Origin: Thermotoga profunda AZM34c06 | GTDB lineage: Bacteria > Thermotogota > Thermotogae > Thermotogales > DSM-5069 | NCBI RefSeq assembly: GCF_000828675.1 | Contig: NZ_AP014510.1 | Location: forward strand, 310,001 to 374,000 | Reading direction: 5' to 3' | DNA: 64,000 nucleotides | Shown here: in pieces, positions 48,685 to 54,999 of the stretch | Layout of the letters: each line of letters opens with the position of its first letter | How positions within the stretch are numbered: position 1 is the first letter of the stretch | Translations under genes and position numbers: made by a program | The notes under the pieces: generated by a model | Database searches by the model: none | What the model was told of the DNA's origin: nothing | The model's input: only the letters and a program-made list of their open reading frames with translations

Positions 48685-48735
48685 TTGACTTTATACTATA
48701 TATAGTATATTATTGATCATGTACACATTATATAG
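48685..48735 (+). promoter_or_regulatory. nrdDG promoter with two NrdR-box-like sites
   Basis: TTGACT (48685-48690) and TATTAT (48708-48713) are 17 bp apart. The spacer holds CTATATATAG (48696-48705), a full match to the NrdR-box core. CATTATATAG (48726-48735), one change, lies 30 bp further downstream beyond the start of transcription. The geometry fits repression by NrdR, with the same spacing as at nrdJ. Confidence 0.83.
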
Positions 48736-48754
48736 TAGATGCGGGGGTGTGACG

Positions 48755-50542
48755 ATGTCTTTTGATACTGTTGATTTAATTGAAAGATACCTCTCTTTGC
48801 AAGACTGGCAAGTGAAGGAAAACAGCAATATGAATTATTCACTTCAAGGAATGAATAACTATATAGTCTCGGCATTGACTACAAAATATTGGTTGGAGAA
48901 GGTCTATCCAGAGAAAATCAGTCAAGCTCATTTAAATGGTGATTTTCACATTCATGATTTGAATCTTCTCGCCCCTTACTGCTGTGGATGGGACTTGAGA
49001 GATCTTTTAATAAGAGGTTTTGGGGGTGTTGAACAAAAGGTTGAAAGCAAACCCGCAAAACATTTTAGAGTAGCATTAATGCAAGTAGTTAACTTTTTTT
49101 ATACTTTACAAGGTGAAGCGGCAGGTGCTCAAGCATTTTCTAATTTTGACACATTTCTTGCTCCTTTTATAGCTTATGATAGACTATCTTATTCAGATGT
49201 GGTGCAATGTATGCAAGAATTTATCTTCAATTTAAATGTCCCAACAAGGGTTGGTTTTCAAACTCCTTTTGTGAACATAACAATGGACGTAGTAGTACCA
49301 AAATATCTTGCTCGTGAGCCGGTTATCATAGGGGGAGAGTTTCAAGATAAATGTTATGGAGATTTTCAGAAGGAAATGGATATGCTTAACAAGGCATTTT
49401 GCGAAATAATGCTTCAAGGTGATGCTAAAGGAAGGATTTTTAGTTTTCCTATACCGACTTATAACATCTCTCATGACTTTCCTTGGGATAGTGAAGTTGC
49501 AGAGATGATTTTGAGAATGACCTCAAAGTATGGTGTACCATATTTTGCCAACTTTATAAGTTCTGGCTTGGCGCCAGAAGACGTGAGAAGTATGTGTTGT
49601 AGATTGAGACTTGATAATCGTGAATTGCGCAAAAGAGGGGGAGGACTATTTGGTGCAAACCCGATGACGGGTTCTGTTGGTGTTGTAACCATCAACATGC
49701 CTCGGCTTGGATATCTTTCAAATTCAGTTGAAGAGTTTTTTGAAAGATTGTCAGATGTAATGGATCTGGCAAAGGAGAGTCTCATAATCAAACGTGGATT
49801 CATTGAAAGATTAACTGAGATTGGGTTGTATCCATATTCAAGGGTTTGTCTAAAAAATATCAAAGAATTTTTTGGACAATATTGGCACAACCATTTTAGT
49901 ACAATTGGTTTAATCGGTATGCACGAAGCTCTTATGAATTTGTTTGGAAAAGGTATAGATACTGAAGAAGGCAGAGATTTTGCCATAAAGGTTCTCGATT
50001 TCATGAGAACACGATTGATCGATTACCAAAAGGAGACAGGGAATCTATTTAATCTTGAAGCAACTCCTGCTGAAGGTACTTCTTATAGGCTTGCAAAGAT
50101 CGATAAACAGCGTTTTGGTGATATATTCACAAACGGTGATATCGAACCATTTTATACAAATTCAACTCAACTCCCCGTAGGCCAAATTGAAGACCTTTTC
50201 GAAGCACTTCAAATGCAAGAGGAATTGCAAATCAGATATACCGGCGGAACGGTTTTCCATATTTATTTAGGTGAACAAGTAGAAGATCCGATGGTAATCG
50301 GACTTCTTATCAAAAGAATCTTTGAGAATTATCGGTTGCCTTATATCACAATTACTCCGACTTTCAGTATATGCCAGGACCATGGGTACTTATCGGGAGA
50401 ACATTACAACTGTCCGGTGTGTGGTCGGGCGACAGAAGTTTGGAGTAGGGTAGTTGGTTTTTATAGACCTGTTCAGAATTGGAATCCAGGAAAGCAAGAA
50501 GAATTCAAATTCAGAGATGTTTATAAAATTCACCATGAGTGA
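48755..50542 (+). CDS. nrdD: Anaerobic (class III) ribonucleoside-triphosphate reductase
   Basis: Glycyl-radical reductase, 595 residues, with no N-terminal ATP-cone. The glycyl-radical site is in SRVVGFYRP near the C-terminus. A zinc site with CQDHGYLSGEHYNCPVCG lies just before it, and DFHIHDL is near the N-terminus. ATG 48755 follows a GGGGGTG sequence; the in-frame ATG at 48713 lies in the promoter region and precedes the second NrdR box. Co-transcribed with nrdG six bases downstream. Confidence 0.95.
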   Translation: MSFDTVDLIERYLSLQDWQVKENSNMNYSLQGMNNYIVSALTTKYWLEKVYPEKISQAHLNGDFHIHDLNLLAPYCCGWDLRDLLIRGFGGVEQKVESKPAKHFRVALMQVVNFFYTLQGEAAGAQAFSNFDTFLAPFIAYDRLSYSDVVQCMQEFIFNLNVPTRVGFQTPFVNITMDVVVPKYLAREPVIIGGEFQDKCYGDFQKEMDMLNKAFCEIMLQGDAKGRIFSFPIPTYNISHDFPWDSEVAEMILRMTSKYGVPYFANFISSGLAPEDVRSMCCRLRLDNRELRKRGGGLFGANPMTGSVGVVTINMPRLGYLSNSVEEFFERLSDVMDLAKESLIIKRGFIERLTEIGLYPYSRVCLKNIKEFFGQYWHNHFSTIGLIGMHEALMNLFGKGIDTEEGRDFAIKVLDFMRTRLIDYQKETGNLFNLEATPAEGTSYRLAKIDKQRFGDIFTNGDIEPFYTNSTQLPVGQIEDLFEALQMQEELQIRYTGGTVFHIYLGEQVEDPMVIGLLIKRIFENYRLPYITITPTFSICQDHGYLSGEHYNCPVCGRATEVWSRVVGFYRPVQNWNPGKQEEFKFRDVYKIHHE

Positions 50543-50548
50543 GTATCT

Positions 50549-51289
50549 ATGCGTTTGATTCAAGGCTGGACCAAAGTCAGTCTTTTGGATTACCCGGGTT
50601 ACCTATGCTCTGTGGTGTTTACAGCTGGATGTAATCTCAGGTGTCCTTATTGCCATAATAAAAATTTGATTAACAAAAACGGATCACACTATCAGATCGT
50701 ATGGGAAGAAGTCGTAAATTGGCTATCGAAAAACCATCAAATGATAGATGGTGTATGTTTCACAGGAGGTGAACCGACTCTCTGTTCGGATTTAGAGTCG
50801 ATGATCTACGATGTCAAGAGATTAAATATGATGGTGAAACTTGATACGAATGGCACAAACCCACTTGTATTGAAAAAATTGCTTGATCTGCATCTGATAG
50901 ATTTTGTAGCGATGGATATAAAGGCTCCGCTGGATAAATACACCCAGATTTGTAGATCCAATGTTGATATTTTCAGTATACAAAAATCAGTTGAATTAAT
51001 AAGAATATATGCACCAAATTATGAATTTCGGACAACTTTTCACCCTTCACTACTTTCAATCGAAGATTTCCATCGAATTTGTGAGTGGCTAAAAGGTATC
51101 GATATTTATGTCATTCAGAATTGTAGAGTTGGCAATAACCTCGATCCTTCCTTCAATGAACTACCACAGGTTGATTACAAATATATCCAAGATATAGCAA
51201 ATCTCTGCAAAAGTTATTTTTCAAAATTCATTCTTCGTGGTTTTACAATACCTTTGCAAAAGACCGCTGACAGCCTTCAAAGGGTATAA
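50549..51289 (+). CDS. nrdG: Anaerobic ribonucleotide reductase activating protein (radical SAM)
   Basis: Generates the glycyl radical on NrdD with S-adenosylmethionine and a 4Fe-4S cluster. 246 residues, longer than enterobacterial NrdG (about 154). The cluster motif CNLRCPYCHNKNL is near residue 30, CFTGGEPTL is the GGE motif, and KLDTNGTNP follows. The length resembles the YjjW/PFL-activase-like group seen in Thermotogae. Starts after GTGAGTATCT with weak Shine-Dalgarno support. Confidence 0.92.
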   Translation: MRLIQGWTKVSLLDYPGYLCSVVFTAGCNLRCPYCHNKNLINKNGSHYQIVWEEVVNWLSKNHQMIDGVCFTGGEPTLCSDLESMIYDVKRLNMMVKLDTNGTNPLVLKKLLDLHLIDFVAMDIKAPLDKYTQICRSNVDIFSIQKSVELIRIYAPNYEFRTTFHPSLLSIEDFHRICEWLKGIDIYVIQNCRVGNNLDPSFNELPQVDYKYIQDIANLCKSYFSKFILRGFTIPLQKTADSLQRV

Positions 51290-51308: not shown

Positions 51309-52103
51309 GTGAGGATAGGCCTTTTGGTTGAAGGTGTATGCCCCGGTTTCAACAAGTTTATTCATACGCTCGTCCAGAAATCTGAAAATGTTATTGTAGG
51401 TTTTTCGAATGGCTGGGGAGGGCTTTATCGTGATGAATCACATTTTATAGACGTACGAATGACAGCTGGATTTGAGAACCTTGGTGGATCAATTCTACCA
51501 AGTTTATTTTTAAAAGATATACCAAAGGGCTGGAAATACAAAATAATGCAGAACCTCCTCAAGTACAAAATAGACCTGCTACTTGTCGTTGGTAATGAAT
51601 ATTCTCTTGATCTTCTCAATGAACTTTTTTCAGCTGGAGTAAGAGTGATATTAATTCCATCAGCAGATTTTGGACTAAACATCGGATCGTACAAAATGGG
51701 TTTGAATACCATTTTGAACAAGCTCAGTGAATGTATGTATTATTTCAAGAATTTCTCGAAAACATCAGGTAGAAAAACTGTACTTTGTTTATCTCAAAGG
51801 TTTAGAGACTTCGTGATTCAAATGAAAAATGTGCACAATTTTTTCATGAATGAGGTTTCTGACCAAATCTTTATCTCGTGGGATGGACATTATGATTGTA
51901 CAGTGAAAATCGATGGGATTTTGAGTGCAAGTAAGCCACTCAAGAAGGATCTCTCTTTTGCTGAAGATCTTGCAAAAGTACTTTTGTCACGTTCATCTTT
52001 AAGGGGAGGAAGTATGCTCGTTTATGATGAGGATTTTGAGTTTCTCACGCTTCAGAGTTTTCGAAATACAGGGGTAATAAAGAGGGGGGAAGTAATAACA
52101 TGA
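51309..52103 (+). CDS. Phosphofructokinase-fold protein with degenerate active site
   Basis: 264-residue protein aligning by eye along the first two-thirds of [27 protein letters not shown] matches the PFK start with GGDxPGxN reduced to [15 protein letters not shown] stands for the Mg/ATP-binding GGDGS, and [21 protein letters not shown] for VPxTIDNDxxGTDxTxGFDTAL. Only the first Asp of TIDND is kept, and the MGR substrate motif is absent. Phosphoryl transfer is therefore unlikely; function unknown. GTG 51309 lies six bases after GGGAGG. It sits between nrdG and an AMMECR1 gene (4-nt overlap), in one operon. Confidence 0.7.
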
Positions 52104-52624
52104 AAGGTGAACATCCATATGTAAAATGGGCTATCAGGAGTATCGAAGCCTGGATAAAAGAACATATAATGATCGATCCGCTTAAGGACGAAGCACCACA
52201 AGAACTTTTGAAAAGAAAATCTGGAGCCTTTGTGAGCTTGCACAAGCTGAATGGCGAATTGAGAGGGTGTATAGGTACCTATCTTCCAACCAAGGCAAAT
52301 TTAGCCGAGGAGATAAGAGATAACGCAATCGCAGCTGCTACAGAGGATCCGAGATTTACACCACTCACACAGAGAGAACTTGACGAAATCGAAGTCAGTG
52401 TGGATATTTTGAGTGAACCAGAGAGAATATCAGATGTGGATCAACTCGATCCAAGAAAATATGGGGTAATAGTTGTTAGTGGCTTTAAAAGAGGACTCCT
52501 ACTACCAGATTTACCGGGTGTTGATACTGTCGAACAGCAGATTAATATTGCAAAGAGAAAGGCTGGTATCTTTTCCGGTGAAAAAATCACCATATACAGA
52601 TTCACTGTTGAAAGGTATCACTGA
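52100..52624 (+). CDS. AMMECR1 domain protein (AmmeMemoRadiSam system protein A)
   Basis: 174-residue AMMECR1-family protein. The invariant LRGCIGTY is present (residues ~52-60), with [20 protein letters not shown] and [14 protein letters not shown] following. It overlaps the PFK-like gene by 4 nt and is followed 12 nt later by its radical-SAM partner. The MEMO-type third partner is not encoded adjacent to it. The biochemical role of the family is unsettled. Confidence 0.93.
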
Positions 52625-52635
52625 GGGGTGATTGA

Positions 52636-53625
52636 GTGCAAAAAATGGCGCTCTATTTCACTGGTCTTGGTGATGGAAAAGTAAGGTGTGAGCTCTGTCC
52701 ACATCACTGTGTTTTATCAGAAGGGCAAATAGGGTTGTGTCTTACCAGAAAGAATCAGGACGGTGTGATGGAATTGATGAACTACGGGCAGATCACCTCG
52801 ATTGCCATTGATCCCATAGAAAAGAAGCCTTTGTTCCATTTCAACCCTTCTGATAAAATACTCTCGGTTGGAACCTTTGGGTGCAATATGAAATGTGCTT
52901 TCTGCCAAAACTGGGAGATATCTCAGCAGATGACTCCAACAAGGCGAGTCCTTCCACAGCAGATAGTATCTATTGCAATTGAACGGGGCTCAAAAGGGAT
53001 TGCATATACTTATAATGAACCCTTCACTTGGTTTGAATTTGTTCTTGACACCTCGAGGATAGCGGCTAAGGAAGGTTTATATAATGTCTTGGTGACAAAT
53101 GGTCTTGTGGAAAAAGAACCACTTAATTTGTTACTTCAGTCTATTCATGCTATGAATATCGATCTCAAAGCCTTTGATGAGAAGATCTATCACCTTTTAG
53201 GTGGAGACTTAGACACTGTGAAACGGACTATTGAGAGATCCTTAGCCTATGGGATTCATGTAGAGATAACCACTCTAATTGTACCTGGTGTGAATGACGA
53301 TAGAGAACAACTTGAGAATGAATTCAAGTGGTTGTCGAGTTTAGATCGATCCTTACCACTTCATCTGTCTCGTTATTTTCCAAACTATAAAATGACCAAT
53401 CCGCCAACTCCTTCAGAAAAATTAATAGATTTTTATGATCTTGCACATGAGTATCTTGATTTTGTCTATATTGGCAATCTCTGGGATCCACGATATGAGA
53501 GCACGGTATGTCCAGATTGTGGGACAATGGTTATCCAGAGAGAAGGCTACAATGTTCAGATCAAAGCATTAGATTCAGAAGGTAGGTGCAAAGAGTGCGG
53601 AAAAAAGATAGCAAAAATATTCTGA
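52636..53625 (+). CDS. AmmeMemoRadiSam system radical SAM enzyme
   Basis: 329-residue radical SAM protein. An N-terminal cysteine set (CELCPHHCVLSEGQIGLC) precedes the 4Fe-4S motif CNMKCAFCQNW, and AYTYNEPFTWFEF follows. A zinc-ribbon-like C-terminus ends in CPDCGTM..CKECGKK. The domain plan fits the radical-SAM component of the AMMECR1-MEMO system. GTG start after GAGGGGTGATTGA. The end overlaps apbE. Confidence 0.92.
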   Translation: MQKMALYFTGLGDGKVRCELCPHHCVLSEGQIGLCLTRKNQDGVMELMNYGQITSIAIDPIEKKPLFHFNPSDKILSVGTFGCNMKCAFCQNWEISQQMTPTRRVLPQQIVSIAIERGSKGIAYTYNEPFTWFEFVLDTSRIAAKEGLYNVLVTNGLVEKEPLNLLLQSIHAMNIDLKAFDEKIYHLLGGDLDTVKRTIERSLAYGIHVEITTLIVPGVNDDREQLENEFKWLSSLDRSLPLHLSRYFPNYKMTNPPTPSEKLIDFYDLAHEYLDFVYIGNLWDPRYESTVCPDCGTMVIQREGYNVQIKALDSEGRCKECGKKIAKIF

Positions 53626-54647
53626 GAATAAGCAATTTCGTTCTTGTGATTTTTTTGATTGGAATTGCTATCACTGTGGCTATTTTAGTGATGGTTTTTG
53701 TGCGTATACCACCGAGTTATTATGAATATACAGGTTTTACCTTAGGCACGTATTGCAGGATTGTGGTATCTTCCAAAAAGGGTTCGAAGAACCTATCAGA
53801 GATTATCTTCAATGAATTGGACCGAGTTTACAAAAAATTTGATCCAAATAATCCAGATAGCACTATTAGCAAGATAAATTCATCAAAAGATTGGGTTGAT
53901 CTTGATGAAGAGAGTTTCGTGTTGATTGATGCAGCATTGAAATTTTCACAGATCACTGAAGGCGCGTTCGATCCAGCCTTAGGTAACTTGATAAAACTCT
54001 GGGGTTTTGACAGAATAGCTGAGCGTGTACCCACAAAAATACCATCTCAGTCAGAGATCGATGAGATTCTAAGGCATTGTGGAGTGGAAAAGGTTGAATT
54101 GGATGGCAGAACAAGGAGAGTGAGATTGAACGATGGTGTGAAACTGGATCTTGGTGGAATTGCGAAAGGTTATGCATTGGACAGAGCTTACCAGATAGCC
54201 AAAGAAATAGATGCGAAGTGTACAGGGTTTGTAGAAGCCGGCGGAGATATTAGGATTTTGGGACCAAAATTCGGCTCCAGACCTTGGGTAATTGGTGTGA
54301 GAGATCCCCGAAAATCAGAGTCAGCAATTGATTATATCTATTTAACAGATGGGGCGGTGGCAACGTCTGGAGACTATGAAAGATACTTCATCGTTGATGG
54401 AGTGAGATATCACCACATTTTTGACCCAAAGACTGGTTATCCTGCCCACGGTGCACAATCGGTGACTGTCATCGCAAAGGATGCGACAACGGCTGATGTT
54501 TTGTCCACATCGGGTTTTGTAATGGCGCAGGAATGGGAATATGTTGTTTTAGAATATCCACGATTTGGCGGGAGTGTTTTACTAATCGGTGAAGATGGTG
54601 CAATTCATAAATCACCATCATTTTCAGTTTATGAACGGGCAAAGTAA
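53595..54647 (+). CDS. apbE: FAD:protein FMN transferase (ApbE)
   Basis: Attaches FMN covalently to Ser/Thr of extracytoplasmic electron-transfer proteins. 350 residues with a transmembrane anchor (~12-36). Domains show GTYCRIVV, LDLGGIAKGYALD, VEAGGDIRILG and HIFDPKTGYPAHG. GTG 53595 is preferred (AGGTG upstream); GTG 53586 lies three codons earlier. Overlaps the radical-SAM gene by 31 nt and the NusG-II gene by 17 nt. Confidence 0.93.
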   Translation: MRKKDSKNILRISNFVLVIFLIGIAITVAILVMVFVRIPPSYYEYTGFTLGTYCRIVVSSKKGSKNLSEIIFNELDRVYKKFDPNNPDSTISKINSSKDWVDLDEESFVLIDAALKFSQITEGAFDPALGNLIKLWGFDRIAERVPTKIPSQSEIDEILRHCGVEKVELDGRTRRVRLNDGVKLDLGGIAKGYALDRAYQIAKEIDAKCTGFVEAGGDIRILGPKFGSRPWVIGVRDPRKSESAIDYIYLTDGAVATSGDYERYFIVDGVRYHHIFDPKTGYPAHGAQSVTVIAKDATTADVLSTSGFVMAQEWEYVVLEYPRFGGSVLLIGEDGAIHKSPSFSVYERAK

Positions 54648-54999
54648 GATTTTTAGGATATCTGATCTTTTTATTGTTGTCGCCATAATTGTTGTTTTCC
54701 TGGCGTTTTGGTTTTTGACACATCAAAGTAGTCTTACAGGATATGTTGAAGTCTACAAAGATGGACGATTGATTGCTGTGTTGAAACAAGATATCAGATA
54801 TGAGTTAAAAAACGATGGAAAACACATCATGGACATTGTTTTTGATGGTAAGAGAGTTCATGTAGAGAACAGCGATTGTCCTTTGAAGATCTGTGAAAAG
54901 ACCGGTAAAGTTGGGCCAAATGGTGTGATAGTGTGTATTCCGAACAAAGTTGTCGTGAAATTTATTGGTAAAAGTGATGTGGATGTGATGACTTGGTGA
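54631..54999 (+). CDS. NusG domain II-containing protein
   Basis: 122-residue protein with an N-terminal transmembrane helix (~12-30) and an extracytoplasmic NusG-II-like beta domain. HVENSDCPLKICEKTGKV holds the two conserved cysteines, and VVKFIG is near the end. The family commonly sits between apbE and a Gx transporter gene; function unproven but linked to membrane flavinylation clusters. Starts inside the end of apbE. Confidence 0.85.
   Translation: MNGQSKIFRISDLFIVVAIIVVFLAFWFLTHQSSLTGYVEVYKDGRLIAVLKQDIRYELKNDGKHIMDIVFDGKRVHVENSDCPLKICEKTGKVGPNGVIVCIPNKVVVKFIGKSDVDVMTW

Follow-up and report, generated by a model that had tools for sequence, protein, structure and literature searches.

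The alpha subunit of plant PFP is a presumed regulatory homologue of phosphofructokinase (PFK), full in length and paired with a catalytic beta subunit. The degenerate PFK-family protein described here, which we refer to as PFKL, might likewise be read as a regulatory PFK homologue, but PFP alpha differs from it in being full-length and in having the catalytic beta subunit at its side. Closer counterparts are the intact PPi-type PFKs (with a GGDD motif; e.g., that of G056) encoded in other Thermotogota, which occupy the same genomic slot, give the best profile match and share the CPG loop with PFKL; unlike PFKL, they possess 340 amino acids, complete PPi-PFK motifs and a full F6P-binding domain. 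The predicted large domain of PFKL (residues 1-126 and 205-256) superposes on the PfkA proteins from E. coli and Geobacillus with Z-scores of about 16-17, but PFKL is without most of their small domain, the MGR and GHxxRGG motifs, D12 and R72. A further relative, the GGR paralogue found in Pseudothermotoga and in Fervidobacteriaceae-like genomes, resembles PFKL in that it has a changed Mg-site motif and is encoded in the same genome; it is nevertheless full length (~340 amino acids), has kept TIDND, and falls into a separate clade nearer to the ATP-PFKs. In the literature searched, we found no functional characterization of the radical-SAM/AMMECR1/Memo set, no report linking AMMECR1 and PFK (one co-mention aside), and no description of the PFKL protein.

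A PFK-Family Gene Upstream of AMMECR1

In the window, i.e., the entire stretch of 64,000 nucleotides that was analyzed, PFKL is co-directional with nrdD and nrdG upstream and with four genes downstream:

48713..50542, + strand, nrdD; upstream in the window's genus only
50549..51289, + strand, nrdG (NrdG2, TIGR02495); upstream neighbor in the window's genus only
51309..52103, + strand, PFKL, a degenerate PFK-family gene (264 amino acids, GTG start)
52100..52103, + strand, ATGA overlap of the PFKL stop and the AMMECR1 start, read from the sequence
52100..52624, + strand, AMMECR1 (AmmeMemoSam_A, TIGR04335)
52636..53625, + strand, AmmeMemoRadiSam radical-SAM enzyme (TIGR04337)
53586..54647, + strand, putative ApbE-like gene, judged from the sequence; same order conserved, orthologues placed by phmmer
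54589..54999, + strand, small protein that looks NusG-domain-II-like; found in this order at most of the loci

A plausible Shine-Dalgarno sequence (GGGAGG) lies ahead of the GTG start codon, and the ATGA overlap makes translational coupling between PFKL and AMMECR1 likely.

The resemblance to PFK on which a first-pass annotation had remarked was confirmed by the Pfam profile PF00365 (54 bits, E = 2.1e-14; cut-off 30.9). Both Pfam and NCBIfam name PFKL as a PFK, albeit for residues 1-158 only, and PFK homology recognizable from the sequence stops near residue 157. Among PDB chains, PfkA from E. coli matches PFKL at 5.8e-6, and a profile-profile comparison with the operon PFKs yielded 1.8e-17. 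A tblastn search of plasmids returned partial matches covering up to 72% of the query; those over an annotated gene hit a PFK. The following segments can be discerned in the protein:

51333..51347, + strand, GVCPG (residues 9-13), remnant of the GGDxPGxN donor-phosphate loop with one residue deleted and D12 lost
51588..51599, + strand, VGNE (residues 94-97), remodeled GGDG/GGDD loop with E97 at the D103 position
51657..51668, + strand, PSAD (residues 117-120), from a (K)TIDND loop that has been remodeled and shortened by one deletion; its D120 corresponds to the catalytic D127
51723..51920, + strand, what is left of the shortened small (F6P-binding) domain, at about residues 139-204, without MGR and the helices behind it; the model is poorly determined here
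51921..52076, + strand, predicted helix-strand segment at the C-terminus (residues 205-256), assigned to PFK domain A from the AlphaFold model and its structural alignment

In place of the donor motifs GGDxPGxN and GGDGS/GGDDT, PFKL reads EGVCPGFN and GNEYS, and PSADF stands at TIDND, where D120 aligns with the catalytic base D127 once the one-residue deletion is taken into account. The Mg-site acid D103 is E97 in the window PFKL and an Asp in the sister genus. The annotation was thus right about the alterations that it quoted and about the absence of MGR, but it overstated the case in holding every PFK motif to be altered, since D120 corresponds to D127 and E97 is found at D103. It was mistaken in regarding length and spacing as conserved: with 264 amino acids, PFKL is 76 residues shorter than its nearest intact relatives (340 amino acids), and little of the small F6P-binding domain is left. 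A stretch of about 105 amino acids in these relatives (MGR...GAHLILIP...AEGF...RTGYET) corresponds to about 43 in PFKL, and the segment bearing the F6P site (MGR, E222, GHxxRGG and the small domain itself) is missing. In comparison with the operon PFKs, PFKL has furthermore lost D12 of the first loop, R72, and the stretch behind MGR. PFKL probably no longer phosphorylates F6P.

The GxCPG loop is found in 9 of 10 PFKL orthologues, and its G, C, P and G recur in 20 of 20 intact operon PFKs, while GN[DE] is present in 8 of 10 orthologues at a position where all intact relatives have GG. One orthologue (G006) has neither the GxCPG loop nor the Asp of PSAD, and the copy from G004 is also without this Asp; the donor site is hence not universal in the PFKL family.

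Distribution of PFKL and Its Neighbors

The family to which the window genome belongs (the Pseudothermotoga line) was represented in our sample by eleven genomes. A clear PFKL orthologue directly upstream of AMMECR1-radical SAM-ApbE was present in ten of them, that is, in 10 of 10 assembled loci. The eleventh genome (G004), which is 71% complete, contains a longer degenerate copy, cut off by the contig end, in which GGDD has become GQET and KTIDND has become PTVGS. This copy (L237:2255-3148) follows fabK-fabD, encodes at least 298 amino acids and has apparently kept part of the small domain; it is possibly an intermediate stage.

In other families of the Thermotogota, the same slot is filled by an intact PFK of 340 amino acids (GGGDCPGLN, GGDDT, PKTIDND, MGR). 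Asp at position 104 is a signature of PPi-PFKs (PMC10339645), and the operon PFKs are of the PPi type. The operon PFK is the only PFK match in five basal sister-family genomes (G013, G029, G031, G033, G037). The other PFKs of the window genome include one ATP-type and one PPi-type enzyme with intact motifs, whose genes lie about 190-210 kb away from PFKL. The genus of G021, which we take to be Thermotoga, possesses AMMECR1-radical SAM-ApbE but no PFK, the slot being occupied by a gene on the opposite strand; in the Thermotoga-like genomes (L159-L165), this gene encodes a membrane protein that looks to us like DUF1385. A third family of the Thermotogota has the radical-SAM-ApbE pair without adjoining AMMECR1 or PFK. 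One class-level family includes two genomes (L181, L188) whose PFK-AMMECR1 pair is set apart from the radical-SAM gene, which sits with ApbE elsewhere (L180, L189); the pair in L181 follows an ATP-synthase epsilon-like gene. Outside the Thermotogota, the AMMECR1-radical SAM loci that a genome scan sampled from other phyla had no PFK adjoining AMMECR1. Given this absence and the loss of the gene in Thermotoga, we rejected the idea that PFK is a general or constant member of the AmmeMemoRadiSam set.

The constant neighbors of PFKL are all found downstream (AMMECR1, the AmmeMemoRadiSam radical-SAM gene, and ApbE), and the gene upstream of the PFK slot varies (nrdDG, fabKD, the ATP-synthase-epsilon-like gene, and others). 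The first-pass annotation had held that a conserved order of nrdG, the PFK-like gene and AMMECR1 would speak for a linked function; AMMECR1 is indeed downstream in every assembled locus, but nrdDG is specific to the four genomes of the window's genus, and fabK-fabD takes its place upstream of PFKL in the sister genera. One member of the window's genus (G002) has retained fabKD about 4 kb upstream of PFKL, separated from it by nrdDG, which suggests that nrdDG was inserted there later.

Descent of PFKL

Profile comparisons ranked the operon PFKs first (8e-20), ahead of the ATP-PFKs (5e-16), the GGR-PFKs (4e-13), and the long PPi-PFKs (1e-7). In a maximum-likelihood tree, the PFKL family is placed among the operon PFKs, with a branch length of 3.6 changes per column. 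Because the AU test rejects none of the alternative PFK parent clades (p 0.24-0.42; long branch), the parentage of PFKL rests mainly on its genomic position and its best profile score. Its homology to PFK and its residence in the same slot point to descent from the PPi-type PFK encoded upstream of AMMECR1.

The locus presents a traceable loss of the catalytic sugar half of a central metabolic enzyme whose gene has been retained: certain relatives have an intact PFK as their sole PFK match, Pseudothermotoga has a degenerate copy, and Thermotoga has none.

Selection on PFKL

Pairwise dN/dS values for PFKL, obtained with the simple NG86 estimator and with several dS values near saturation, were 0.16 (window-G001), 0.22 (G001-G003), 0.14 (G010-G007, overlap removed), and 0.35 (G008-G009), and they are below 1 with Fisher p-values from 1e-6 to 1e-27. 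For the same unsaturated pairs, AMMECR1, the radical-SAM gene and ApbE gave values of 0.03-0.10, so that PFKL, with dN/dS several-fold higher, is constrained, but far less so than its neighbors. PFKL is not a pseudogene; it is under purifying selection that is relaxed in comparison with the adjoining genes.

The PFKL orthologues of the two main genera share a mean identity of only 19%. Of the 23 conserved columns, ten fall into the 17 that make up the donor loops (p = 2e-7, or 3e-6 when the count is confined to the N-terminal part). These p-values are indicative, as the loops were defined from known PFK motifs after the alignment had been seen. Three of the conserved donor-loop positions, N96, S118 and A119, are derived and common to both genera.

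Predicted Fold of PFKL

An AlphaFold model of PFKL was built with four eligible relatives; inclusion of full-length PFK rows in the input led to a poor C-terminal half, which improved when only their N-terminal parts were used. The model has a mean pLDDT of 55 and a pTM of 0.57 and is reasonable at residues 1-53, 70-120, and 210-240 but not at residues 121-209, with pLDDT values under 50 in its middle. VIA-align matched residues 1-256 of the model to residues 2-304 of the E. coli PFK chain with a Z-score of 17.2 over 168 residues (rmsd 2.7), which agrees with the PFK fold that the first-pass annotation had proposed. The top Foldseek matches listed were all PFKs, proteins with which the predictor behind the model was already familiar. 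Domain A of the E. coli enzyme comprises residues 1-138 and 251-305, so the parts retained in PFKL are those of domain A. Compared by profile only, the C-terminal third showed no homology that was significant against column shuffles, so that its assignment rests on the structure model. The large donor domain is predicted to have the PFK fold, and PFKL as a whole would fold as domain A of a PFK. In its broader claim, that PFKL was kept as a fold and not for glycolysis, the annotation finds support in this PFK-derived fold, in the probable loss of the glycolytic activity, and in the retention of the gene under purifying selection.

Possible Functions of PFKL

These data could be accommodated by a history in which separate ATP- and PPi-PFKs took over glycolysis in the Pseudothermotoga line and the operon copy then lost most of its F6P-binding domain. 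PFKL would have retained the large domain for the phosphate donor, its site now remodeled (GxCPG, GN[DE], PSAD), and would bind a phosphate compound (PPi, a nucleotide or a phosphosugar) without glycolytic turnover. It would be produced along with AMMECR1, and its likeliest role would be that of an accessory or a ligand-sensing partner in the AMMECR1 module. In its general form, a non-glycolytic PFK descendant whose core still binds phosphate or nucleotides and whose translation accompanies that of AMMECR1, this is our best reading, and we judge its chances of being correct to be about even. The narrower proposal, that in Pseudothermotoga PFKL serves the AMMECR1-radical SAM module as an accessory or sensor that binds PPi or nucleotides, is tentative and on balance unlikely; if true, it would tie this module to the phosphate or energy state of the cell. 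A partnership with AMMECR1 or the radical-SAM enzyme is suggested by their adjacency, but this adjacency may have been inherited from the time when PFKL was a plain PFK gene and would then be weaker evidence than it appears. The lasting neighborhood of PFK and AMMECR1-radical SAM offers a testable handle on the chemistry of this pair.

The main rival to the phosphate-binding reading is decay shielded by translational coupling: PFKL would be a slowly eroding relic, whose frame stays open mainly since its translation feeds the overlapping AMMECR1 start. The ATGA overlap or tight spacing of the two genes, the several-fold elevated dN/dS, the stepwise shortening from 340 to 264 and 243 amino acids, and the complete loss of PFK in Thermotoga fit such a course of events. 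Coupling alone, however, would not preserve amino acids, and dN/dS values of 0.14-0.35 are far from 1 (p down to 1e-27), while derived donor-loop residues have become fixed across genera at 19% identity; we therefore consider a mere relic rather unlikely. Acidic residues at the D127 and D103 positions in most orthologues, together with the retained GxCPG loop, might instead suggest that PFKL is still an enzyme in which Asp120 and Glu97 act on PPi or an NTP with another acceptor or none, as a hydrolase or transferase. This suggestion, drawn from the sequence, is improbable, given that the window protein has lost or altered the first-loop D12, R72, MGR, and the His and Arg of GHxxRGG and that Asp120 is absent from two orthologues.

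By analogy with plant PFP alpha, PFKL could be a subunit that regulates one of the catalytic PFKs of its own cell. PFKs are oligomers, and the separate ATP- and PPi-PFKs of this genome have intact motifs, but most of the small domain of PFKL is gone, and it is AMMECR1 that always adjoins PFKL, with the intact PFK genes about 190-210 kb distant; we regard such a role as highly improbable. The chances are slimmest for the job in deoxynucleotide control that the first-pass annotation had envisaged, i.e., regulation of the anaerobic ribonucleotide reductase NrdDG. In four genomes, all from one genus, the genes adjoin and run in the same direction, but the sister genera have fabKD upstream of PFKL and nrdG elsewhere (e.g., in G007 at C1:3449 vs 112693). 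A function of PFKL as an accessory of the class III Nrd enzyme was consequently rejected as a genus-specific linkage.

Related Observations

The GGR paralogue (L058:6569-7594, G000 C1:151568-152593; relatives in L229, L230, L231, L234, L235, L236) is a candidate for a second PFK pseudoenzyme. Its members comprise 333-342 amino acids and have GGR in place of GG[DE]GS, i.e., an Arg at the position of the Mg-site Asp103; TIDND is kept, as is MG[RK]PxGW in most of them. They form a separate clade (100/99) that occurs in Pseudothermotoga and another family, and the gene lies near ATP- and PPi-PFK genes on the chromosome.

We also considered PFKL as a replacement for Memo and rejected this, as Memo is encoded elsewhere in the window genome (G000 C1:423284). 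A protein of 440-505 amino acids that includes AMMECR1 is encoded next to the radical-SAM gene in Clostridia and other bacteria (L084, L085, L087-L089, L093, L094, L097-L100, L106, L108, L117, L128); judged by its length, this protein is probably a Memo-AMMECR1 fusion.
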